Source: Planctomycetota bacterium
GTDB taxonomy: Bacteria; Planctomycetota; Phycisphaerae; Phycisphaerales; SM1A02
Direction of reading: 5' to 3'
DNA: 64,000 nucleotides
NCBI GenBank assembly: GCA_021414025.1
Contig: JAIOPG010000002.1
Location: forward strand, 372,001 to 436,000
Below the pieces are notes generated by a model. That model was not told where the DNA came from. It searched no databases and saw nothing but the letters and a program-made list of their open reading frames with translations. This document shows, in pieces, positions 8,960 to 32,736 of the stretch. Each line of letters begins with the position of its first letter. The first letter of the stretch is position 1. Both the position numbers and the translations under genes were made by a program.

Positions 8960-11032
8960 TCAGGCGGGGCTGGGCATCACGCCGATGTCGGGGGCCGGCG
9001 GCTCGGGCTTTGGTGACACGGGGGGCGTGGTCGTCGCGGAGAGCATCTCGACCACGGTCGGCGGAGTGAAGGCCTCGCCGCGGATGATCTTCTGCACGTC
9101 CTCGACCTGAAGGGTCTCGTATTTCAGCAGGGCCTCGGCCAGCGCCGAAATCTTGTCCCAGGAGTCGTGCACCATCCGCTGAGCATCCTTGAAGGCGTCG
9201 TCGATCAGGCGGCGGATCTCCTCGTCGATCATCTTGGCGGTGTCCTCGGAAAAGTCGCGCTCGGGAATGAACGATTCGCGCGAATCCTGTCCCGCGTAGC
9301 GCACGAAGCCGAGCCGCTCGCTCATGCCCCACTCGAGCACCATGGCCCGCGCGTAGGCGGTCGCCATCTTGATGTCCATCGCGGCGCCGCTGGAGACGTC
9401 GCCGTTCTGGCGGGCCTCGGCGATGCGACCGCCGCAGAGCACGCGCATGGTCGCCAGCAGGTACTTCCTCGAGAATCCGTAGCGGTCCTTTTCGGGCAAA
9501 CTGAAAGTGACGCCCAGCATCTGCCCGCGCGGAATGATGGTGACCTTGTGCAGGGGATCGGCGTCGGGCAGCAGCACCTGCAGGATGGCGTGGCCCGACT
9601 CGTGATAGGCGGTGGCAACGCGCTCCTGCTGCTCGATGCGCCGGCTCTTCTTGGCGCGGCCGAAGCGGATCTTGTCGCGGGCCTCTTCCATGTCGGTCAT
9701 CTCGATGAAGTCCTTGTCGAGCATGGTGGCCAGGATCGCGGCCTCGTTGATGATGGCGGCCAGGTCGGCGCCGCTGAACATCGGCGTGCTGCGGGCCATG
9801 CGCTCCAGGTTGACGTCCGGACCCATCTTCACCTTCTTGGCGTGCACGGCGAGAATCTGCCGGCGTCCCTGCACGTCGGGAAACTGCACGCCCACGGTGC
9901 GGTCAAAGCGGCCGGGCCGCGTCAGCGCCGGGTCGAGCACGTCCACGCGATTGGTGGCCGCGATCACGATGACCTGGTCATTGGCGTCGAAGCCGTCCAT
10001 CTCGACCAGGATCGCGTTGAGGGTCTGCTCGCGCTCGTCGTGGCCGCCGGTGGTGAATCCGCCGCCGCGCCTGCGGCCGACGGCGTCCACCTCGTCCAGG
10101 AAGATGATGCACGGAGAATTGTCCTTGGCCTGCTTGAAGAGATCGCGCACGCGGCTGGCGCCGACGCCCACGAACATCTCCACAAAATCGCTTCCCGAGA
10201 TCGAGAAGAAGGGCACCTCGGCCTCACCGGCGATGGCCTTGGCCAGCAGCGTCTTGCCGCAGCCGGGAGGTCCTTCCAGCAGCACGCCGCGGGGAATGCG
10301 CCCACCGAGGCGCTGGAATCGCTTGGGATCCTTGAGGAACTCGACGAGCTCGGAAACTTCCTCCTTGGCCTCGTCGATGCCGGCCACATCCGCGAAAGTG
10401 GTGTGGGCCATCTCCTTGTTGCTGACGCGGTGCTTGCTGCGGCCGAAATTGCCCAGCATGCCGCCGGGTCCGCCCCCCGCGTTGCGCATGCTGCGCGAGA
10501 GCAGGAACCAGAGAATGCCGAGGATGATCAGCGTCGGCAGGATCGTCATGGCGATCTGCGCGAAGGTGCTCGTGCCCACGTCGACGCGGTAGGGAATCCC
10601 TGCCTCGTCCAGGTTCTTCATGTACTTCTCGATGGCCGTGGGAGCAATGGACACGTACACCGGAGCCGGTTTGTCGCCGAACTGCTCGGCAAAGCCCTTG
10701 GTGTTCGGCTTCACTTCCGCAACGATTCGGTCGTTCAGGATCACCACCGACTTGGGCTCCAGCTTGCCCTCCTTGGCGTACACCATGAATTCCTGCCAAG
10801 TGTCAAAGGCCCTGCCGCGAGTCGAGCTGCCGTTGATGACGATCCAAATGAGCAGCGCCAGCAATCCCAGGGTGAACCAGGTCACGCTTTGGCGGCGCGG
10901 CTTGATCGGCGGGCCGGAGGAGCCGGGAGTGGGTGGATCAATTTTCTTCAATTTCTTCTCCGGCTTCTTCTTCGAGGCGAAGGCGATCGTGTTCGGGTCA
11001 GAGTTGGGTTCGCTCATTTGAAAATCCTGCAT
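8960..11032 (-). CDS. ftsH: ATP-dependent zinc metalloprotease FtsH
   Basis: Membrane-anchored AAA+ protease that degrades misassembled membrane proteins and short-lived regulators. Its 690 aa have a Lys/Pro-rich cytoplasmic N-terminus, TM1 at about 51-69, a periplasmic domain, TM2 at about 160-178, Walker A GPPGCGKT (254-261), Walker [10 protein letters not shown] (309-317), a second-region-of-homology segment [19 protein letters not shown], and the zinc site HESGH at about 477-481. The start is ambiguous. The frame opens at ATG 11032, 3 nt after the lptE-like stop, but ATG 11017 (MSEPNSD) has the better AGGA 8 nt upstream. It is the last gene of bamD-lptE-ftsH. Confidence 0.95.
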
Positions 11033-14179: not shown

Positions 14180-14437
14180 ATGAGTGAGGCGGACATGATC
14201 GACGCCCTTCGATCGGCGCTCTCCGCTGCGCTGGTCCTGGCGCTGCCGCTGCTGCTGGTGGGCCTCCTGGTCGGTCTGATCTCGGGTCTGGTGCAGTCGC
14301 TTTCCAATGTGCAGGATGCGGCCGCGGCCTTCGCGCCGCGACTCATCGCGGTGGCGCTGGTGGCGATCGCCCTTGCGGGTTGGATGGGATCGAAAGTCAT
14401 CGACTTCGCCGTGACCATGATGGGAGGTGGCGGGTGA
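14180..14437 (+). CDS. fliQ: Flagellar type III export gate protein FliQ
   Basis: An 85-aa two-helix membrane protein, the normal size for FliQ. Helix 1 is LSAALVLALPLLLVGLLVGL, the loop holds the family motif SLSNVQDAAAAFAPRL, and helix 2 is IAVALVAIALAGWM. It lies 41 nt after fliP, with GCGAGGAG just upstream of the ATG. Its stop overlaps the fliR GTG (GTGA). Confidence 0.9.
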   Translation: MSEADMIDALRSALSAALVLALPLLLVGLLVGLISGLVQSLSNVQDAAAAFAPRLIAVALVAIALAGWMGSKVIDFAVTMMGGGG

Positions 14438-15165
14438 GCCTCTCCGCAATCGCAGTGGCAGGCGCGGCGCGGGCCGCCGGCGCGGCGGTCTTCGCTCCCG
14501 CGTTCACAATGATTCCGTGGCGCTTTCGTCTGGCCTTCGCGGCGGCGGCAGGATGGGCCGCGGCGCCGATCGCCGCAGGCGACGCGATGGTGACCTCGAT
14601 CTCGCTTCCGGAGATCGCCGTTGAGGCGGCCATCGGCGCCATGATCGGCTTGCTCGCCGCGATTGCGGTCGAGGCGCTGCGCGTCTGCGGTCACGTCATC
14701 GGCGAGCAGATGGGTCTCTCGCTCGCGCAGGCCTACGACCCCGCCATCGACGGCGAGGCCAGCAGCGCCGAGGCGTTGCTCGCCTGGAGCGCCATCACCA
14801 TCTTCGTGGCGGTGGGCGGAATCCAGACGGTGGCGATGACCGCCGCCACGAGCGTGCGCACGCTGCCGCCGGGATCGTTCTTCCAATCGGGCATCGCCAA
14901 CTCGGCGGCCTCGCTGCTGGACGCGGCGATGCTGGTGGGTTTCAAGGCATGCCTGCCGGTGGTGGGCGTGCTCGCCGCCGTTTCCGCGGTGGCGGCGCTG
15001 GTGGTGCGCATCGTGCCGGGATTCTCAACCTTCTCCGCAGGATTCGGCCCGCGCGCCGCCACGGGCCTTGCCGCCGCGGTGGCCACCTGCGGCGTCATGT
15101 GGGCGGCCGAAAATGCCTTCATCCAGGACTCGCTCGCACGCATCGCCCGGGAGGTGGCCCCCTAG
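14434..15165 (+). CDS. fliR: Flagellar type III export gate protein FliR
   Basis: Third gate component; 243 aa with about six hydrophobic segments. Recognisable stretches are RAAGAAVFAPAFTMIPWRFR, the segment ending VIGEQMGLSLAQAYDP (as in the family GxqiGls.a...dp motif), and a FKACLPVVGVLAAVSAVAAL segment. I start it at GTG 14434 within the fliQ stop rather than at the in-frame ATG 14380, because the upstream residues are a shadow of fliQ. The stop at 15163-15165 directly abuts the flhB-like ATG. Confidence 0.9.
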   Translation: MSLSAIAVAGAARAAGAAVFAPAFTMIPWRFRLAFAAAAGWAAAPIAAGDAMVTSISLPEIAVEAAIGAMIGLLAAIAVEALRVCGHVIGEQMGLSLAQAYDPAIDGEASSAEALLAWSAITIFVAVGGIQTVAMTAATSVRTLPPGSFFQSGIANSAASLLDAAMLVGFKACLPVVGVLAAVSAVAALVVRIVPGFSTFSAGFGPRAATGLAAAVATCGVMWAAENAFIQDSLARIAREVAP

Positions 15166-15864
15166 ATGCTCGGAGATTCCGCCGAACGCATTCACCCGCC
15201 CACGCTTTCGAAGCGCGAGCATGTCCTTGCCCAGGGCCATGGTCCGAGGGCCGTCTGGCTCGCGTCGTTCCTGGGAATAATGTTCTTCGGTGCCATCACC
15301 GCGGTGGCAGCGCCGATGCAGATCCGTTCGCTGCTGGCGATGGCTCGGCGACTGTTCCTGCTGACACCATCGGACAAGTCCGCATCTTTGCTCGCTGAAG
15401 CGATCGAGCCTGCCTTGTGGCTGGTTGCCTTCGCGTTTCTGGCTGCGCTTCTGGCGCATGCGGCTTCCCACTGGGCGTGGATCCGCATGGGTCCCTGGAA
15501 GATGAGGCCGCGCACTTCGATCCTGTCGCGCATCGGTCCGGTCTTCGCGGGTCTGGTCACCGCGGTCGCGACCTTGGCCGCGAGTCTGGCTTTCGCCTGG
15601 CCCTGGCTGGCCAACATTTCCAACTGGAGCAGGGGATCGCTTTCGAGTGTGCTGGGATCGGCGCTGGGCATGATCGGCATGACCGCGCTCGGCGCGGCGA
15701 TCGTGCTGTTCGCGGCGTCGCTGCTGCAGCGATTCAAGGCGCGAAGCACCTTTGAAGCGGGCATCCGATTGACTCGGGCCGAAGCGAAGGAAGCGGCCCG
15801 TGAATCTGGCGAAGGCCGTGCGACGCGGCGACGGCCGCAGCACCCGCGGGGAGGACGCTCATGA
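15166..15864 (+). CDS. flhB: FlhB-like export protein lacking the autocleaving cytoplasmic domain
   Basis: FlhB normally has an N-terminal four-helix membrane domain and a C-terminal cytoplasmic domain that self-cleaves at NPTH and switches substrate specificity. This 232-aa protein has only the first part: a PT-x(n)-KR-like start (HPPTLSKREHVLAQG), about four hydrophobic segments, then LLQRFKARSTFEAGIRLTRA and EAKEAARESGE, corresponding to the LxMxKQEVKxExKxxEG connector. It ends in a basic tail. No NPTH and no roughly 120-residue C domain follows. The stop overlaps the flhA ATG by 4 nt, and the other frames here show no lost domain. The truncation therefore looks native rather than a recent frameshift. 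Confidence 0.78.
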   Translation: MLGDSAERIHPPTLSKREHVLAQGHGPRAVWLASFLGIMFFGAITAVAAPMQIRSLLAMARRLFLLTPSDKSASLLAEAIEPALWLVAFAFLAALLAHAASHWAWIRMGPWKMRPRTSILSRIGPVFAGLVTAVATLAASLAFAWPWLANISNWSRGSLSSVLGSALGMIGMTALGAAIVLFAASLLQRFKARSTFEAGIRLTRAEAKEAARESGEGRATRRRPQHPRGGRS

Positions 15865-17939
15865 TCCCTCCCAAGCCCGCGCTGCGAATGGAATGGCTCG
15901 TGCCCGCGGCCTTCATCGGGCTGGTGGCCGTGCTGGTGGTGCCGCTGCCGCCGATGGCGATGGACGCGCTGATCGCGGTGAACTTCGCGCTGAGCGGATT
16001 GGTGCTGGCCACCGCCGCCAACATGAAGAAGCCGCTTGATTTCAGCGTGTTTCCAGCGCTGGTGCTGGGCACCACGCTGCTGCGGCTGGGCATCAACGTG
16101 GCCAGCACGCGGCTCATCCTCGGCATGGATGCGGCCACTCCCGAAGCGGGCCGCGCCGTGGCGGGTTCGGTCATCGAGGCCTTCGGTGAAATCGCCGCAG
16201 GTCGCAATCCCATCGTCGGCCTGAGCGTCTTCGCAATGCTGGTCGTGGTGCAATTCGTCGTGGTGACCCGCGGCTCAGTGCGCATGGGCGAGGTGTCGGC
16301 TCGCTTCGCGCTGGACGCGCTGCCGGGAAGGCAGATGGCCATCGATGCCGATGTGGCCTCCGGCGCCATCACGCCGACCGAGGCGAGCCAGCGCCGCGAT
16401 GTCGTGCTGCGCGAGGCGGATTTCCACGGCGCGATGGATGGCGCCGGTCGCTTCGTGCGCGGCGACGCGGTTGCGGGCATCGTGATCGTGCTGGTCAACA
16501 TTTTGGGCGGATTCCTGGTGGGAATGATCCAGAAGAATTGGAGCATCTCCGAGTCGCTGCGCGTCTTCACGCTGCTTGCCGTCGGCGACGGATTGGTGAC
16601 GCAGATTCCCGCCTTCCTGGTGGCGACCGCCTCAGGCCTGGTCGCGGCCAAAGCTGCCAGCGGCGAAACCCTGGGAACGGAAATCCCGCGTCAGCTTGGT
16701 GCCCGTCCCGTCACGCTCTGGATCGTCGCCGGATTGCTTGCGGGTCTCTCCGTCACTCCGCTTCCGACCGCGCCGCTGCTGGGTGCCTCGATGCTTCTGG
16801 CCGCGGCGGCGTGGTGGATCGGCCGCGTGCAGGTGGCGGCGGGCCGGCTCGCCGTCCAGACCGAGCGCGCCGCACTGAGCGCCTCCGAATCGCTGGAGGA
16901 TGCGCTGTTGATCGAGCCGATCAGCATTGACCTTGGCCTTGACTTGCTGATGCTGGCGCACCAGGAGCGCAGCGAAACCGGCTTGCTTCCACTGGTCGCG
17001 GGAGTGCGCCGCCAGCTGGCGATGGAACTGGGCGTGGTCGTGCCATCGGTGCGCATCCGCGATGATCCAAATTTGCCCGCGGACTCCTATGTCATTCGAC
17101 TGCGCGGCGCGGCGGTGGGCGGCGGCACGCTGCGCCCCGGTCGCATGCTGGTGATGGATCCCAAGGGCGGCGCGCCGGAAGTCGCGGGCGAGCCCGCACA
17201 GGAACCCGCCTTCGGTCTGCCCGCCATCTGGGTGGAGGACTCGGTCGCCCGGAGTCTGGAAGGGCAGGGCTTCGCCATCGCCGACTCCGGCGGCGTGCTC
17301 GCCACGCATCTGCTGGAAGTCCTGCGCAAGAAAGCCTGGGAGCTGGTCACCCTCGAGGAGACCGCCAAGATGCTGGAAAGGCTGCGATCACGCTCGCCCA
17401 ACTTGGCCGCCATGCTGGCGCCGCCCACATGGACCCTGGACCGCATCCGCGGAATTCTTCAGGAGTTGCTGCGCGAGGGGGTGGCGATCCGCGACATCGA
17501 GAAGATCGCCGAACTGCTGGTCTCGCTGCCGGTGGCCACCCAGCCCGATCAAACCATTGCCGTAGTTCGCAGCGTGGTCTCCCATGACGTCTGCGACCGG
17601 CTGATCACACGCAACTCCAGCGGAAACCGGGTTTTGCACGCCGTGTGGATGGATGAGGAGACCATGCTTTCAAGCGGGGCGCTCGCCGCCGCCCAGCGCA
17701 GCGTGGTGCCCGAGGCCGCAGCTGCCGAGCGACTAGTCCGATGCGTGGCGCCGGGCCTGCGCGATCTGCTGCGCCGCGGACTTCCCGCGGTGGTGGTGAC
17801 ACCGTTGCCACTGCGCGGCGCGGTGAGCAAAGCCCTGCGCGGCCGCCTCGGCGATGTCTCGGTGATCGCGCGCGAGGAGATTCCCGAGGGCGTTGAACTG
17901 GTTCTGGCTGAAGCGACGCAAACCGAGGCGGTAAAATGA
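15861..17939 (+). CDS. flhA: Flagellar export apparatus protein FlhA
   Basis: Large export-gate subunit that forms the nonameric ring and energises secretion. At 692 aa it is full length. The N-terminal half has eight or so membrane helices and the FHIPEP-family signature RFALDALPGRQMAIDAD (from about 148) followed by READFHGAMDGAGRFVRGDA. The C-terminal half is cytoplasmic, with motifs DPNLPADSYVIRLRG, THLLEVLRKKAWELV and a helix around LREGVAIRDIEKIAELL. The ATG overlaps the flhB-like stop, and its own stop overlaps the next ATG. Confidence 0.95.
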   Translation: MIPPKPALRMEWLVPAAFIGLVAVLVVPLPPMAMDALIAVNFALSGLVLATAANMKKPLDFSVFPALVLGTTLLRLGINVASTRLILGMDAATPEAGRAVAGSVIEAFGEIAAGRNPIVGLSVFAMLVVVQFVVVTRGSVRMGEVSARFALDALPGRQMAIDADVASGAITPTEASQRRDVVLREADFHGAMDGAGRFVRGDAVAGIVIVLVNILGGFLVGMIQKNWSISESLRVFTLLAVGDGLVTQIPAFLVATASGLVAAKAASGETLGTEIPRQLGARPVTLWIVAGLLAGLSVTPLPTAPLLGASMLLAAAAWWIGRVQVAAGRLAVQTERAALSASESLEDALLIEPISIDLGLDLLMLAHQERSETGLLPLVAGVRRQLAMELGVVVPSVRIRDDPNLPADSYVIRLRGAAVGGGTLRPGRMLVMDPKGGAPEVAGEPAQEPAFGLPAIWVEDSVARSLEGQGFAIADSGGVLATHLLEVLRKKAWELVTLEETAKMLERLRSRSPNLAAMLAPPTWTLDRIRGILQELLREGVAIRDIEKIAELLVSLPVATQPDQTIAVVRSVVSHDVCDRLITRNSSGNRVLHAVWMDEETMLSSGALAAAQRSVVPEAAAAERLVRCVAPGLRDLLRRGLPAVVVTPLPLRGAVSKALRGRLGDVSVIAREEIPEGVELVLAEATQTEAVK

Positions 17940-18223
17940 CTTGCAAAAGCTACAGCGGATCGAACGAGCTGGATCTGCTTCGTCAGGCAAAGGCTGAAAA
18001 CCCCGATGGATTCGAGATTCTCTCCATCAAGCGCAGCGGCTTCCTCTGGTGGCGCAAGGTCACCCTGCTGGCGCAGCCGCTAACGCGGGCGCCGCGCCAG
18101 GAAATGAACAAGCTCAGGCTGCTGGCCGCGCTGCACTCCATCCGCGAGCAGCGCCAGCAGCAGTCGGCGCAGCGGGATGTCTTCACGCACTCCCACGACT
18201 TCATCAAGCAGCAGCGGCGCTAA
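17936..18223 (+). CDS. Small protein resembling the FlhF N-terminal domain
   Basis: A 95-aa protein whose ATG overlaps the flhA stop (ATGA), the position where flhF usually sits. Its first 50 residues (MTCKSYSGSNELDLLRQAKA, GFEILSIKRSGFLWWRKVTL) follow the FlhF N-domain pattern: K-x-Y/F strand, a helix ending in A.E..P..., then ILS.K...GF.....V...A. No GTPase (NG) domain follows. The tail is Gln/Arg-rich. It may be a stand-alone FlhF N-domain or the remnant of a lost flhF. The family call is inferred from short pattern similarity and gene order. Confidence 0.55.
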   Translation: MTCKSYSGSNELDLLRQAKAENPDGFEILSIKRSGFLWWRKVTLLAQPLTRAPRQEMNKLRLLAALHSIREQRQQQSAQRDVFTHSHDFIKQQRR

Positions 18224-26565: not shown

Positions 26566-29500
26566 TCAACCGCTTGGATTTGTGGAATCTTTCCCCGTGA
26601 AAATGCGGTAGAGCGCCGGCAGCACCACCAGCGTGAGAAGCGTGCTTGAAATCAGCCCTCCGATGACGACCGTGGCCAGGGGTTTCTGGACCTCGGCGCC
26701 CGTGCCCTGGGCCAGGGCCATTGGCACGAAGCCGAGTGATGCCACCAGGGCGGTCATCAACACGGGCCGCAGCCGCACCAGGCAACCGCGCTCGATCGCG
26801 GTGTCGCGCTGCAGACCTTCGCGCCGCAGTTGATTGATGAACGAAACCATCACCAGACCGTTGAGCACGGCGACGCCGGAGAGCGCGATGAATCCCACCG
26901 CCGCGGATATGGAGAAGGGCATGTCGCGCAGCCACAGAGCGACGATGCCGCCGGTGAGGCCAAGCGGCAGGGCGCTGAAGACCAGCAGCGCGTACTTGAC
27001 GCTCTTGAAGGTGCTGAAGAGAAGCAGGAAGATCAAAAGGAAGCAGACGGGAACCACCACGCCGAGCCGTTCCTTGGCAGCCACCAGATTTTCGTACTGG
27101 CCGCCCCAGACGATCCATTGGCCTGCCTTAAGGGAAACACCCTGAACGCGTTGCTGCGCCTCCTGGACGAAGGAACCCAGATCGCGCCCGCGCACATTGC
27201 ATTGGATGACGATCCGTCGCTTGCCGTTCTCGCGGCTGATCTGGTTGGCACCCTCCGCGACCTCGATCGCGGCCACCTGGCCCAGCGGCACGAACCCCGC
27301 GTCCGCTGTTTGGGTTTGCTTTCCCTGAGAATCAACGATGCTCGCGTGCTGAAGGATGCCCGGCTGCGGCTCGCCCTTGGGCAGGGGTATGGGCAGTCGC
27401 TCGAGCACGTCGAATTTTCCGCGCAACTCGTCCGGCAGGCGAACCACCAGGTGGAAGCGGCGATCACCTTCGAAGACCTGGCCGGCCTCGGTGCCGCCCA
27501 TGGCTGCCGAGACCACCGTCTGCACGTCAGCCACGCTCAGGCCGTAGCGCGCGATGGCGGGGCGGTCGATTGCAACGGTCATCACCGGCAGGCCCTCGGT
27601 CTGTTCGGCTTTGACATCGGCGGCGCCGGGAATGCCCTGGAGCACCGCTTGCACCTCCTTGGCGGTTTTCTCCATCGCGGCAAAGTCGTCGCCGTAGACC
27701 TTGACCGCCACGTCGCTTCGGACGCCAGAGATCAATTCGTTGAAGCGCATCTGGATCGGCTGCGTGAATTCGTAGTTGTTGCCCAGCTCGGCGGCCAGTG
27801 TTTTCTGGATGAACTCGATGAGTTTCCCCTTTTGCCCGTCGAACTCGCTGCGCCATTCCTCCTTGGGCTTGAGAATGATGAATGTGTCCGAGACATTCGG
27901 GGGCATCGGATCGGTGGCCATCTCGGCGGTGCCGGTCTTGGAGAAGATGAAGGCGACCTCGGGAATGGCGGCGACCGCCCGCTCGATTTCAAACTGCATG
28001 GCCTGCGACTGCGTGATGCCGGTCGAGGCGATCCGCATCGCGTGCATGGCGATGTCCTTCTCGTCGAGCTGCGGCACGAATTCCTGACCCAGCCGCGTGA
28101 AGAGCAGCGCCGATGCGGCGAAGGCCACCACCGCCGCCGAGACCACGCTCCAGCGCATGCGGATCGACCAGGCGACCACCGGCGCATAGACGGACTTGGC
28201 CCAGCGCACCAGGAACATGTCCTTCTCGCTCACCTTGCCGCGGATCAAAATCGCGACCATCGCCGGGACAAAGGTCATCGAAAGGATGAAAGCGGCGATG
28301 AGCGAAAAGATCACCGTCAGCGCCATCGGATGGAACATCTTCCCCTCGACGCCGGTGAGCGCCAGAATCGGAAAGTAGACGATGACGATGATCGCCTGCC
28401 CGTACACCGAGGGCTGGATCATTTCCTTCGCGGCGATCATGACCTCGCGAAGTCGTTCTTCCAGCGTGAGCAGGCGGCCCTCGCGGTGCTGGCGCTCGCC
28501 GAGCCGGCGCAGGCAATTTTCAACGATGATGACGGCGCCATCCACGACCAGACCGAAGTCGATCGCCCCCAGGGACATCAGGTTTCCGCTCACATTCGAC
28601 TGCACCATTCCGGTGGCGGTCATGAGCATCGACAGCGGAATGGCCAGCGCACAGATCAGCGCCGCCCGCACATTGCCCAGCATCAGCAGCAGCACGGCGA
28701 TCACCAGAACGGCGCCTTCCAGCAGATTGGTCCGGACCGTGGCGATGGTCGCATCCACCAGCTTGGTGCGATTGAGCACGGTCTTGGCCCGGATTCCGGG
28801 CGGCAGACTGCGCTGGATCTCGGTCATCTTGGCGTCGACCGCGGCGGCCACGGTGCGGCTGTTGGCGCCGATGAGCATGATCGCGGTTCCCACCACGACC
28901 TCGTTGCCATTCTCGCTGGCAGAGCCGGTGCGCAGCTCGCGGCCGACGCCGACTCCGCCCGGAACAACGATGTCCCGCACATAGATCGGCACGCCATTGC
29001 GGGTGCCCACCACGATCGATTCAAGCTGCTCCATGTTCTCGATGCGCCCCGTGGTGCGCACGAGGTAGGACTCTCCCTTGTGCTCGACGTAGCCCGCGCC
29101 GGTCGAGACGTTGTTGCTCTCGATCGCGTGGATGACCTCCGTGAAGGTGAGGCCGTAGGAGACCAGTTTCATCGGATCGGGCTGCACGTGGTACTGCTTC
29201 ACGTATCCGCCGATCGCGTCCACGCCCGCGACATCCTTCACACCCTTGAGTTGCGGACGGATGATCCAATCCTGCACCTCGCGCAGATAGGCCGATTGCT
29301 CGAGCTCGCTGGCCAGGCGCCGATCCTCCGGTGTCAGATAGGAGCCATCCGCTTGCCACCCGGGCACGCCATCGGTGATAGTCGCGCCGACTCCGCGGGG
29401 ATGCTCATATTCCACGGTGTACATGTAGATCTCGCCCAGGCCGGTGGCGATCGGCCCCATGACCGGGTCGACGCCCTGCGGCAGCGAATCCCTGGCTTCG

Positions 29501-29844
29501 CCGAGCCGCTCGGAGACCTGCTGCCGCGCAAAGTAGACATTGACGCCATCCTCGAAGATCGCAGTGACCTGCGCAAAGCCGTTGCGCGACAGCGAGCGCG
29601 TCGACTGCAGGCCGGGTATTCCGGCGAGGGCATTTTCGATCGGATAGGTGACCTGCTTCTCGACCTCGGCCGGGGCCAGAGCCGCGGCGAGCGCGTTGAT
29701 CTGCACCTGGTTGTTGGTGATGTCGGGCACCGCGTCAATCGGCAGCTTCTTGAGCGAGTAGAGACCAAGCGATGCGACCATCGCCGTGAGTAGCACGATG
29801 AGCCAGCGGTTCTTGATCGAGAAGCGGAGCAGAGGTTCGAGCAT
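26566..29844 (-). CDS. czcA: Heavy-metal efflux RND transporter, inner-membrane pump (CzcA/CusA type)
   Basis: Proton-driven trimeric pump of the HME-RND family that exports divalent or monovalent metal ions through the CzcCBA channel. Its 1092 aa have 12 membrane helices in the RND arrangement. The start shows KNRWLIVLL, LPIDAVPDITNNQVQI and PAEVEKQVTYPIENAL, all typical of CzcA/CusA. The TM4 region has the acidic stretch GAIDFGLVVDGAVIIVEN. A roughly 40-residue insert after IYMYTVEYEHPRG is longer than in classical CzcA. Metal specificity (Zn/Co/Cd versus Cu/Ag) cannot be settled by eye. Last gene of the operon, 61 nt after czcB. Confidence 0.9.
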   Translation of the reverse strand: MLEPLLRFSIKNRWLIVLLTAMVASLGLYSLKKLPIDAVPDITNNQVQINALAAALAPAEVEKQVTYPIENALAGIPGLQSTRSLSRNGFAQVTAIFEDGVNVYFARQQVSERLGEARDSLPQGVDPVMGPIATGLGEIYMYTVEYEHPRGVGATITDGVPGWQADGSYLTPEDRRLASELEQSAYLREVQDWIIRPQLKGVKDVAGVDAIGGYVKQYHVQPDPMKLVSYGLTFTEVIHAIESNNVSTGAGYVEHKGESYLVRTTGRIENMEQLESIVVGTRNGVPIYVRDIVVPGGVGVGRELRTGSASENGNEVVVGTAIMLIGANSRTVAAAVDAKMTEIQRSLPPGIRAKTVLNRTKLVDATIATVRTNLLEGAVLVIAVLLLMLGNVRAALICALAIPLSMLMTATGMVQSNVSGNLMSLGAIDFGLVVDGAVIIVENCLRRLGERQHREGRLLTLEERLREVMIAAKEMIQPSVYGQAIIVIVYFPILALTGVEGKMFHPMALTVIFSLIAAFILSMTFVPAMVAILIRGKVSEKDMFLVRWAKSVYAPVVAWSIRMRWSVVSAAVVAFAASALLFTRLGQEFVPQLDEKDIAMHAMRIASTGITQSQAMQFEIERAVAAIPEVAFIFSKTGTAEMATDPMPPNVSDTFIILKPKEEWRSEFDGQKGKLIEFIQKTLAAELGNNYEFTQPIQMRFNELISGVRSDVAVKVYGDDFAAMEKTAKEVQAVLQGIPGAADVKAEQTEGLPVMTVAIDRPAIARYGLSVADVQTVVSAAMGGTEAGQVFEGDRRFHLVVRLPDELRGKFDVLERLPIPLPKGEPQPGILQHASIVDSQGKQTQTADAGFVPLGQVAAIEVAEGANQISRENGKRRIVIQCNVRGRDLGSFVQEAQQRVQGVSLKAGQWIVWGGQYENLVAAKERLGVVVPVCFLLIFLLLFSTFKSVKYALLVFSALPLGLTGGIVALWLRDMPFSISAAVGFIALSGVAVLNGLVMVSFINQLRREGLQRDTAIERGCLVRLRPVLMTALVASLGFVPMALAQGTGAEVQKPLATVVIGGLISSTLLTLVVLPALYRIFTGKDSTNPSG

Positions 29845-29905
29845 GGGGAGCGTTTTCTGTGGTGTGGTGTCTGGAGGTCAGTCAATGGATTCGGTACGCA
29901 GTGCG

Positions 29906-31348
29906 CTAGTGCTCATGCGCCGCGCTTCCCTTGCCTAGTTCCGCCTTCAGGATGAAGCTGCCCGCGGCGACAAACTTCTCGCCGACGGCAAGACCGGAGT
30001 AGACTGGCACCAGACCGCCCACGGACTTGCCCACCGTGACGGCGCGCTTCGCAAATGTGTTGGGTTCATCGGGCACCGGCACAAAGACCGCGGGGCCGCC
30101 CTCCACGGTCTGCACCGCTTCGTCGGGGACCGCGACTATGGGCTTTCCGGCGCCGCCTTCGGCTTCGCTTGATGCGACAATTTCCGCCTGAGCAAACATG
30201 CCCGGCTTGAGCGACATCGCCGCGGCGGGAACTTCAATGCGCACCGAAGCGGTCCGCGTGTTCGGGTCGACCAGCGGCGAAATGAACGCCACCGTGCCTT
30301 CGAAGACCTTGCTGCCGACCGTGCCGATCGTGACCAGGGCCTTGGCGCCGAGCGAAACCTCGTGCATCCGTGCTTCCGGCACATCGGCGATCACCCAAAG
30401 CGTGCTCATGTTCGCCAGCACCATGAGCGTTTCCCGGTCGGGGCCGACGAGTTCTCCCAGCGTGACTTCGCGCTCGACGATCTGTCCGTCGATCGCGGCG
30501 AGGATTGAATAGCGGGGCATGATCTCGCCGGTGGCGGCCAATGCCTCGATGCCTGACTTCGACATGCCCAGAAGGATCAGGCGGTTCTCGCCACCTATGA
30601 CTGAAGCCTGGGCCAGCTTCTGAGCGGCCACCGCCGCGAAGTACTCGCCCTCGCGGCGCTGCACCTCGGTCAGGGAAATGCCCTGCGACTTTTCGTAGAG
30701 GCCTTTCGCGCGTTCCCAGGAGATCCGCGCCAGCTCCATGCTCGGCTTGGACATTTCAGCGGCGGTGCGCTTCTGAAAATATTCGGCCTGCGCCTCGCCC
30801 AGCTCGGGGCTTTCGATCACCGCGAGTGTGTCACCCTTAAGGACCTGCGCGCCCAGGCGAGCCGGGAGCTCGACCACGCGTCCGCGCAGCGGCGAACCGA
30901 CATGGGCCATCGCCTCGGTGTTGAAGGCGACCCGCGCCGGGGCGACAAAGGTGGGCTTCAGGAGCATGTGTTGCGCGGCCTCCACCTTGATGCCGTAACG
31001 GGCGACCGCCTCGGCGGTGAGCTGCACTTCGTCGGAGTGCTCGCCTTCGCTTGCGTGGTCGTGAGCGTGGTCGTGGGGGGCGCTTTCATCATGAGCGCCG
31101 GGTTTCTCGGCGGCATGGTGGTGGGGGACGCTCTCATCATGGGCGCCCGGTTTCTCGCCTGCGTGATCGTGAGGAACGCTCTCATCTTGTGCGCCCGGCT
31201 TTTCGTGAGCATGGTCGTGGTGGTCGGCTTCCGCATGAGGCGCTTCCTTGCTGCACCCGGCGCAAGCCAGCGCAGCGAGGGCGACGGTCGCAGTCAGAAG
31301 GGCGGTGGACAAAAGGCAACGATGGGAAATGAGTGGAATTGCGTTCAT
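29906..31348 (-). CDS. czcB: Heavy-metal efflux membrane-fusion protein with His-rich N-terminal repeat
   Basis: Periplasmic adaptor linking CzcA to the outer-membrane channel; 480 aa. A signal segment (TALLTATVALAALACAGCSK) has a lipobox-like Cys32. Residues about 38-106 are extremely His/Asp/Glu-rich, with three near-perfect 16-residue repeats of the form HAGEKPGAHDESVPHH, probably a metal-binding antenna. The adaptor core follows: GSPLRGRVVELPARLGAQV, VIESPELGEAQAEYF, a helical hairpin, and TIGTVGSKVFEGTVAFISPL. ATG 31348 overlaps the czcC stop (ATGA) and has GGAG 8 nt upstream. Confidence 0.88.
   Translation of the reverse strand: MNAIPLISHRCLLSTALLTATVALAALACAGCSKEAPHAEADHHDHAHEKPGAQDESVPHDHAGEKPGAHDESVPHHHAAEKPGAHDESAPHDHAHDHASEGEHSDEVQLTAEAVARYGIKVEAAQHMLLKPTFVAPARVAFNTEAMAHVGSPLRGRVVELPARLGAQVLKGDTLAVIESPELGEAQAEYFQKRTAAEMSKPSMELARISWERAKGLYEKSQGISLTEVQRREGEYFAAVAAQKLAQASVIGGENRLILLGMSKSGIEALAATGEIMPRYSILAAIDGQIVEREVTLGELVGPDRETLMVLANMSTLWVIADVPEARMHEVSLGAKALVTIGTVGSKVFEGTVAFISPLVDPNTRTASVRIEVPAAAMSLKPGMFAQAEIVASSEAEGGAGKPIVAVPDEAVQTVEGGPAVFVPVPDEPNTFAKRAVTVGKSVGGLVPVYSGLAVGEKFVAAGSFILKAELGKGSAAHEH
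31067..31210 (-). repeat. Three 48-nt tandem repeats inside czcB (His-rich)
   Basis: Three in-frame 48-nt units encode residues 47-94 of the CzcB-like protein, each reading HA-x-EKPGA-x-DES-x-PH-x. They differ by few bases, suggesting recent expansion. A further His/Asp run (HDHAHDHASEGEHSDE) follows. Coding repeat, not CRISPR. Confidence 0.85.
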
Positions 31349-32736
31349 GAATTGGCTCCGGCGTTTGCGGTTTCAACGGGGGCGACAACGGGGGTGACAC
31401 CCGGTCCGCCAACGGCGCGCTGCAGGCGCATCAAAGAGAGAATGGCCTGCAGCTCGATGTCGACGGACTTGGCCAGCGAAGTCTCCAGATCCTGCTCGGC
31501 GAGAAATACGGTGGTCACGTCGGTCTGACCTGCTTGATAGGCGTCCTCGGCTTCCTGCCGCCGCTGCTGCTGCAGCGGGACAAGCTCCATCTGCACGCGG
31601 CGAAGATTGGCGAGATTTCCGGCTAGAGCCTGGTAGGCAACGCGCACTTCCTCGACCACTTTGCGCCTGGCCAGCGTGAGGTTGTGGCGGGCCTCCATTT
31701 GCTCCGCCTCGGCGCGGGCCCGCTTGGCAGAACCCGTGTCGAAAATGGGAATGGGCGTTGAAAGAGCGGGGCCCGTGAAGAAGGATTGATCGTCGCGCTG
31801 GGTCTGGGCTCCCACGCTCAGGCTTTCCCACGGCGCCAGGTTGGCCAGTGCGTACTCGTCCCCGAGGGCCGCAAGTTGCCATGTCACGGCCTGCACCTCA
31901 GGCCGGTGAAGCAGTGCCGCATTCACCCATTGCGACTCCGCGTGCGCCTCGAGCGCCGGCGCCGACCAGGAATCCAATTTCCATTCACCCGCGCTTGAAG
32001 GCTCGCCGATGAGGCGCGCCAGACGCAGGCGATCCTCGCGCCGCTTCAACCGCGCATCCGCGATTTCAACTTCCAACGCAACGCGCTGGGCCGAGAGCGT
32101 CGTGACGTCGGAGCGAACGCCCTCGCCGGCATCGAGCCGGTTTCTGGCGACTTGAGCCAGCTTGTTCAGCAGCGAAAGTCGGTCCTCCAGCAGCGGGATC
32201 AATTGATCGCCCGCCTGCACAGCCGCGTAGCGCGATTGCAATTCGACCACGACATCCAGCGCCACGGTCACCGCGTCGGCGGCGGCCCTGGCAAGTCGAT
32301 TGTCGGCAGCGCTGGCCTTGCGGGGAATCTGCAGGCACTGGATCAGCTCCTCCATGAGCGAGACCTGCACCTGGGGAAGGCCCGGTCCCCACATGTAGGC
32401 GATGGTGAGCACGGGATTGGGCAGCAGACGGGCCTGGTCCGCGTCGGCCATGGCGACGCGCACACGGGCCAGAGCTGCCTGCAGCGACGGATCGGTGGTC
32501 ACCGCGAGGCGCAGGGCGTCGCTTGCGGAAAGTGCGCCTGTGTGAGAGGGTTCATCAAGCGGTCCGCCCTCATCGCGAAAGACCACGGCGTCCTTGGTGC
32601 CGATGGCAAGGGCGATGGACTCCTCGGCGGTGGGTTGCGGAGCATTGGACTGGCATCCGGCTGCAAGAAGCGCGGCGATGGTTACTCCCAAGGCGGGAGC
32701 CCGGCCGCGCACGAAGAAACGCGCAAAAATTGTCAT
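31345..32736 (-). CDS. czcC: Outer-membrane efflux channel of the metal RND system (CzcC/TolC family)
   Basis: A 463-aa TolC-fold protein with two repeats of the OEP domain: SDALRLAVTTDPSLQAALAR and ALLHRPEVQAVTWQLAALG are the paired repeat starts, and long helices rich in Ala/Arg/Glu follow. A lipobox-like AALLAAGCQSN occurs near residue 28, so it is probably a lipoprotein. ATG 32736 has AGGA 8 nt upstream. The stop overlaps the czcB start by 4 nt. Confidence 0.88.
   Translation of the reverse strand: MTIFARFFVRGRAPALGVTIAALLAAGCQSNAPQPTAEESIALAIGTKDAVVFRDEGGPLDEPSHTGALSASDALRLAVTTDPSLQAALARVRVAMADADQARLLPNPVLTIAYMWGPGLPQVQVSLMEELIQCLQIPRKASAADNRLARAAADAVTVALDVVVELQSRYAAVQAGDQLIPLLEDRLSLLNKLAQVARNRLDAGEGVRSDVTTLSAQRVALEVEIADARLKRREDRLRLARLIGEPSSAGEWKLDSWSAPALEAHAESQWVNAALLHRPEVQAVTWQLAALGDEYALANLAPWESLSVGAQTQRDDQSFFTGPALSTPIPIFDTGSAKRARAEAEQMEARHNLTLARRKVVEEVRVAYQALAGNLANLRRVQMELVPLQQQRRQEAEDAYQAGQTDVTTVFLAEQDLETSLAKSVDIELQAILSLMRLQRAVGGPGVTPVVAPVETANAGANS

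Follow-up and report, generated by a model that had tools for sequence, protein, structure and literature searches.

We analysed a 64,000-nucleotide stretch (the window) of a planctomycete genome from the order Phycisphaerales, in which the flhB gene encodes the membrane part of the export-gate protein FlhB and stops ahead of its cytoplasmic switch domain. The reading we prefer, at a probability of roughly 0.6, is that a lineage in which rod, hook, filament, FliM/N and export ATPase are all undetected has kept the gate of the flagellar type III secretion system (T3SS), has lost the switch domain and has retained a proton-driven gate for another job.

The open reading frame (ORF) runs from an ATG at 15166 to a TGA at 15862-15864 and has 232 codons. 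The ATG of flhA lies at 15861, and the four nucleotides ATGA (15861-15864) are shared by the two genes. The Pfam profile PF01312 aligns positions 2-222 of its 335 with residues 7-214 (E 1.2e-10; 41.5 bits, cut-off 24.4 bits), which places the membrane part in the FlhB/SctU family; the full-length FlhB model of NCBIfam scores only 15 bits (cut-off 349). In the alignment the protein stops in the linker after helix 4, ahead of the NPTH region, and the cytoplasmic C domain with its NPTH autocleavage motif is absent from both the translation and the alignment. A sequence-only reading of the window had reported a gene of this length in the flhB slot, ending after the connector, lacking the C domain and overlapping flhA too neatly for a sequencing break, and all of this held. 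An AlphaFold model of the protein has four long helices, with low confidence (mean predicted local distance difference test score 51.6, too poor for a fold search).

The short form is common to the window's genus, for which we analysed 16 genomes (G000 to G015, with G000 the window's own). A lake habitat is suggested by the isolate names, among them Baikal-deep and Loclat. The window's genome (2.80 Mb, 8 contigs, 97.5% complete) has a single PF01312 match. Across the genus, PF01312 is over cut-off in 14 of 16 genomes and every match ends at or before profile position 248; the gene of G013 is cut short where its contig stops, and G011 has no match. The DNA of the 13 complete copies in G001 to G015 was read and encodes 224-236 residues, so that with the window's copy 14/14 are short, and in each flhA begins within about 20 nt of the flhB stop. 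FlhB identity within the genus falls to about 27%. Outside the genus, FlhB matches reach position 332 or beyond in 18 of 21 genomes of the family (in G031 as two pieces on two contigs) and, for the other families of the order, in 23 of 24 genomes (in G051 in two frames); G016, G020 and G032 of the family have no FlhB above cut-off. An assembly or sequencing artefact at 15740-15864 might be suspected from draft genomes, several of the genus records being marked as metagenome-assembled, but complete copies in different genomes share this kind of end point, 14 of 14, which refutes it.

The sequence-only reading had also proposed that another gene supplies the missing domain. In Helicobacter, FlhX can stand in for the C-terminal end of FlhB. 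Proteins of this kind split the function of FlhB over two genes, and we found no second gene in the genus. In the window's genome, PF01312 at E<=10 gave nothing beyond the short FlhB and one 10.8-bit match at noise level, and neither a separate NPTH-containing protein nor a second full-length FlhB was found. A profile of the linker and C domain, built from 30 members of the family and order, gave nothing at E<=1 in 15 of the 16 genus genomes and, in G001, a match of E 0.23 within a 38-aa open frame. This profile misses the short FlhBs' own linkers, a strongly diverged piece could escape it, and its positives (G017, G018, G019, G022 and G033, E 1e-36 to 1e-67) are themselves part of it and do not serve as an independent control; the broader PF01312 search of the window's genome, independent of the 30 rows, agrees with its result. 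Six-frame searches with both profiles thus reject a hidden second FlhB and a split or frameshifted C domain. Elsewhere in the phylum, the matches listed include one frame that would contain the C domain alone (G140, profile 206-335, 138 aa). Two further candidates for an FlhX-like gene were set aside: a C-domain piece in G247 (L124, about 9784-10086, minus strand) lies at a contig end and is probably a cut gene, and the operon of G135 (L125), a one-contig genome, is in many broken short frames that look like indel errors. That the genus still builds a flagellum with a C domain from an unrecognised FlhX-like gene is very improbable, and this explanation is largely refuted by the two profiles together with the missing flagellar parts described next.

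The flagellar axis is undetectable in the genus. The flagellin N domain (PF00669) and a FliK domain over cut-off were each found in 0/16 genus genomes and in 16 of 37 genomes overall. The rod/hook N domain (PF00460) was found in none of the 13 genus genomes searched and in all eight relatives from the order. FliM/N and FliI were over cut-off in 0/16 genus genomes, with G017 and G022 the sole positives for each among 24 genomes; matches to the FliI model below cut-off occur in all 24 and, by our reading, are what related ATPases (AtpA/AtpD, Rho) would give. At the fliF locus, matches to FliE and FliG are present in G018 and G019 of the family and in none of four genus loci. The sequence-only reading had taken the locus for a flagellar export operon and had suggested that specificity switching works differently here. 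The suggestion on switching points in the right direction. What the reading missed is that the genus lacks detectable flagellin, FliK, FliM/N, FliI and rod/hook proteins, and the locus is the gate that is left in an organism without a detectable flagellar axis; the likely reason for the loss of the C domain is that no hook or filament is left to build and there is nothing to switch.

A part of the basal ring may remain. A weak match to PF01514, below cut-off, on contig C7 of the window's genome corresponds to a short FliF-like protein (mini-FliF) that sits where relatives have fliF, judging by eye from neighbouring ORFs. It aligns with FliF over 109 columns (hhalign 97.5%, E 4.9e-12) and has a membrane segment and one FliF ring-building domain; four of the seven frames have a second membrane segment that passes the hydropathy threshold. 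With a profile built from six of these proteins, mini-FliF was matched in 15 of the 16 genus genomes, the six source genomes among them, and near full length in 11; it is missing from G012, a genome 77% complete. Two pairs gave ratios of nonsynonymous to synonymous substitution (dN/dS) of 0.17 and 0.25. Its C-terminal tail faintly resembles the N-terminal part of FliG (hhalign 16%, E 0.0016, 37 columns), a likeness too weak to call the protein a FliF-FliG fusion.

The short flhB is not a pseudogene, and the rest of the gate is under purifying selection. By the Nei-Gojobori method, dN/dS was 0.08-0.25 for the short FlhB (eight of nine chosen pairs, one pair having no complete copy), 0.03-0.10 for FlhA (seven pairs) and 0.04-0.11 for FliP (six pairs); the pairs were chosen by hand, and the most divergent is saturated at synonymous sites. 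Where loci were long enough, synteny is kept, with ftsH, lptE-like and yfiO-like genes upstream and an aldehyde dehydrogenase gene downstream (labels assigned by eye). These results bear on the explanation that the operon is a decaying relic of a lost flagellum and on its way out. Losses do look staged: FlhF has shrunk to 95-98 aa in one clade of the genus and to degenerate proteins of 290-311 aa in the other, and the four genus fliF loci lack the FliE and FliG matches seen in G018 and G019. In the FlhA tree the genus sits on a long branch (1.58), three family members have no FlhB above cut-off, and fliP is broken in one draft. Decay is nevertheless improbable, as all complete FlhB copies lie within 12 codons in length across two old clades, the membrane part of FlhA is 76% identical between these clades, and the order of the operon is conserved.

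FlhA is complete in the window, and its predicted proton path is preserved throughout the genus. Residues R85, R94, R147, R154, D158, D199, D208, D249 and Q254 are intact in 14/14 genus copies. A structure preprint of 2026 places the nine residues on the proton path or the inner charge ring (PMC13308203), and in Salmonella three of them, R94, D208 and D249, have proved critical (PMC3139655). The position of N137 holds Q in nearly all planctomycete rows, including those with a full-length FlhB, and K203 and R270 are replaced by R and K throughout the genus, neither change being confined to it. The nine residues are also kept in 12 rows from other families with a short FlhB, save for one position in G172. 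This conservation suggests that FlhA still couples the gate to the proton motive force.

Short FlhB proteins are not restricted to this genus. FlhB was found in 151 of 244 Planctomycetota genomes, and at least 16 rows begin at position 1-2 and stop no later than 251. The DNA of 15 of these 16 was read: 14 are complete ORFs of 241-275 aa, flhA adjoining in all except G265, and that of G268 runs off its contig. The complete ORFs are spread over five families besides the window's (f21, f61, f63, f66 and f68). On a tree of FlhA from 30 chosen rows, 14 of them short, parsimony requires five changes to a short FlhB in all, at least four of them forced by well-supported branches; the tree excludes near-duplicate and partial FlhA rows, and G247 was scored as full on the strength of a contig-end C-terminal piece and of a full copy in the match list. 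Relatives with an intact motif stand near short forms in f1, f21, f63 and f68. The short form would thus have arisen about four times besides its origin in this genus. FlgE, FlgD, FliK, FliE, FlgC and FlgB were all lacking from the fetched stretches of 13 short-FlhB loci (the 14 verified, less one on a 3.8-kb contig), and matches to this set occurred in 7 of 14 loci where a full-length FlhB has an NP(T/E/D)(H/E) motif. For these other families the lack of axial genes beside flhB is suggestive only, as three of the seven full-length loci without a match, from the window's family, have such genes elsewhere. Members of f21, f66 and f68 keep FliI and are less reduced than the window's genus. Our literature searches turned up no FlhB that naturally lacks the C domain, either in Planctomycetota or in bacteria without a flagellum, which is not proof of absence.

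Within the window's family, three genomes from three genera may represent intermediate stages. NPTH, NPEH or NPDH is present in all 30 of the full-length FlhB proteins of relatives that were read, whose genomes were searched for flagellin in part. In G018, G019 and G033, FlhB is full-length and the motif is replaced by ICDDASG, LVGPGPV and LVGKTIA, respectively. None of the three has FliI or FliM/N over cut-off, and G018 and G019, the two searched for flagellin, gave no match to it and lack FliK over cut-off. This fits an order in which loss of the axis would be followed by loss of cleavage and then of the domain, as a set of stages that is unproven as a sequence; branches within the family other than the grouping of G019, discussed below, are unresolved in the FlhA tree. 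In other planctomycete families, we also observed full-length FlhB proteins in which NPTH is replaced (approximately NGMA, EPDR and APNG in L123 of G257, L134 of G205 and L140 of G128). These are possible further intermediate stages.

We propose that FliPQR and the membrane part of FlhB would still form a gate, which FlhA would tie to the proton motive force. The C domain of FlhB may have been lost once its jobs, docking rod and hook subunits and switching to filament subunits, had no clients. The gate would then carry a few proteins through the inner membrane, or act as a proton-gated inner-membrane complex, with no early or late switching. The argument rests above all on the undetected axis. 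Secretion with no ATPase is possible in Salmonella (PMC4230889).

Several points weigh against this proposal. We identified neither a substrate nor a chaperone nor an outer-membrane partner, so that export through the gate is something we infer. In passages of published models, the C domain docks early substrates (PMC8983047) and may help the gate to open (PMC13308203), and a gate without it might therefore not secrete. In six aligned genus rows compared with nine relatives, about 10 residues are gone from the loop between helices 2 and 3 of FlhB, and the gate-wrapping motif of the type RLNPxxGxKRxFG is replaced in all six; deletions of at least six residues in this loop abolish motility in the system tested (PMC7064499). 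The base of the gate has changed as well. FliP has LGLFMTPP, compared with MGM(L/M)MLPP in seven of eight aligned full-length relatives, and the conserved cytoplasmic loop of FliQ, of the type TQIQEQTLSFVPK in relatives, reads SNVQDAAAAFAPR here. These changes could reflect either rewiring or loss of function. In draft G015, fliP lies in two frames, and mini-FliF is partial or in pieces in G003, G009, G013 and G015. The search for FliG covered fetched stretches of DNA, and in lineages outside the window's family axial genes were likewise looked for in fetched stretches. Among the short-FlhB genomes of other families, G172 has E at the position of D208 in FlhA, and FliG, FliI and a match to FliN lie close to its flagellar locus. 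Of the putative intermediates, G018 has a weak FlgD match (E 5e-6) near flhB, and G019 groups with the intact-motif G022 in the FlhA tree (100/100), so there is no single ladder of loss.

A rival explanation is a gate that no longer exports, in which FliPQR, FlhB and FlhA act as a scaffold or as a regulated proton-conducting complex, for example with the roles reported elsewhere for these proteins in a hat-like inner-membrane structure or linked to membrane nanotubes or pili. In passages describing Campylobacter jejuni without the FlhB C domain, the hat-like structure and the FlhA densities are still there (PMC9380563). In the genus, ring and gate are kept and the ATPase, known substrates, switch domain and rod are undetected. 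A mere scaffold would have no need of the intact proton path of FlhA, and we know of no established role for FliPQR without something passing through. We regard this explanation as unlikely, and as a stronger competitor to a retained, proton-driven gate than decay is.

The features are listed in Table 1. The operon has the order fliO-fliP-fliQ-fliR-flhB(short)-flhA-flhF(remnant)-fliA, and the arrangement fliP-fliQ-fliR-flhB-flhA, typical of the FlhB family, is found in the window and in the genus loci.

Table 1 Export-gate genes and associated features in the window and at the mini-FliF locus.
Feature	Position	Strand	Evidence or remark
FliO, gate assembly factor, 147 aa	12976..13419	+	PF04347 E 1.5e-8
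FliP, gate pore subunit, 240 aa	13416..14138	+	PF00813 E 4.2e-51
FliQ, 85 aa	14180..14437	+	PF01313 E 5.6e-18
FliR, 243 aa, GTG start	14434..15165	+	PF01311 E 8.2e-30
Short flhB	15166..15864	+	232 aa; membrane part and start of linker, without C domain; gate-wrapping loop short by about 10 residues
FlhA, 692 aa, complete	15861..17939	+	PF00771 2-656 of 657, E 1.2e-188
FlhF remnant, 95 aa, N-terminal part only, GTPase domain gone	17936..18223	+	tblastn
FliA/WhiG-type sigma factor, 357 aa	18367..19440	+	TIGR02479 227.5 bits, cut-off 189.6
Shortened FliF (mini-FliF)	L080:9166-10380 = G000:C7:117665-118879	-	genus-specific

The gate is flagellar in type and not closer to the SctV/SctR of non-flagellar T3SS (injectisomes) than to FlhA/FliP. 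FlhA scored 611 bits with its flagellar model and 431 with hrcV, and FliP 168.5 bits compared with 133 for yscR, all of these scores being below the curated cut-offs. The FlhF remnant had no family match in profile searches. It resembles the start of the longer remnants in the other clade (tblastn E 9e-5 to 1.4e-8), one of which matches TIGR03499 (FlhF) with E 4.4e-7, below the cut-off of that model. Between flhA and fliA the window has no room for an flhG-like ORF, and G019 and G033 carry one there. The FliA/WhiG-type sigma factor is retained despite no flagellin gene having been found. Further along the window, on the minus strand at 26566-32736, three genes resemble by eye those for a resistance-nodulation-division efflux pump, a membrane-fusion protein containing His-rich repeats and a channel of the outer membrane, metals being a possible substrate.

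Compared with the flagellar export gate of FliPQR-FlhB and FlhA, as described in passages of PMC7064499 and PMC13308203, the system has FliO, FliP, FliQ, FliR, the membrane part of FlhB and a complete FlhA in the usual order, with the FlhA proton path intact. It differs in the missing C domain and shorter loop of FlhB, in the changed base motifs of FliP and FliQ, and in that no FliI, FliK, rod, hook or filament was detected. Flagellar export genes without a flagellum have precedents (PMC7277350, PMC12403147), and in this respect the finding is of a known kind. The FT3SS-like system of Lysobacter enzymogenes OH11 is one of them; it keeps FliI, its genes are not in an operon, and it is linked to twitching (PMC7277350). 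Myxococcus xanthus has a 'needleless' T3SS*, a base that lacks secretin, needle and translocon and which, unlike the system in this genus, has an ATPase (SctN) and a sorting platform and is tied to a Tad-like pilus and to predation; the text searched names neither FlhB nor SctU (PMC12075869). The C. jejuni strain is a laboratory version of the same truncation, engineered in a flagellate, whereas the truncation described here is natural, genus-wide and recurrent (PMC9380563). The name FlhX occurs in PMC10746217. Among freshwater Planctomycetes, PMC6461901 and PMC9119077 describe some lineages that have flagellar genes and others that lack them.

More tentatively, and with rather less confidence than in a gate kept for another job, we suggest that FliPQR, the membrane part of FlhB, FlhA and mini-FliF could form a minimal proton-driven exporter with no substrate switch and no ATPase. 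It would be the end point of a repeated loss, within Planctomycetota, of the NPTH site or of the whole C domain, and a natural class of appendage-less type III systems with another gating logic. A gate that has repeatedly been stripped of its C domain, with the proton-path residues of FlhA kept, separates motor and switch by natural means. Gates with a short FlhB make it possible to study the membrane core by itself and to ask whether bacteria without a flagellum keep a minimal type III exporter.
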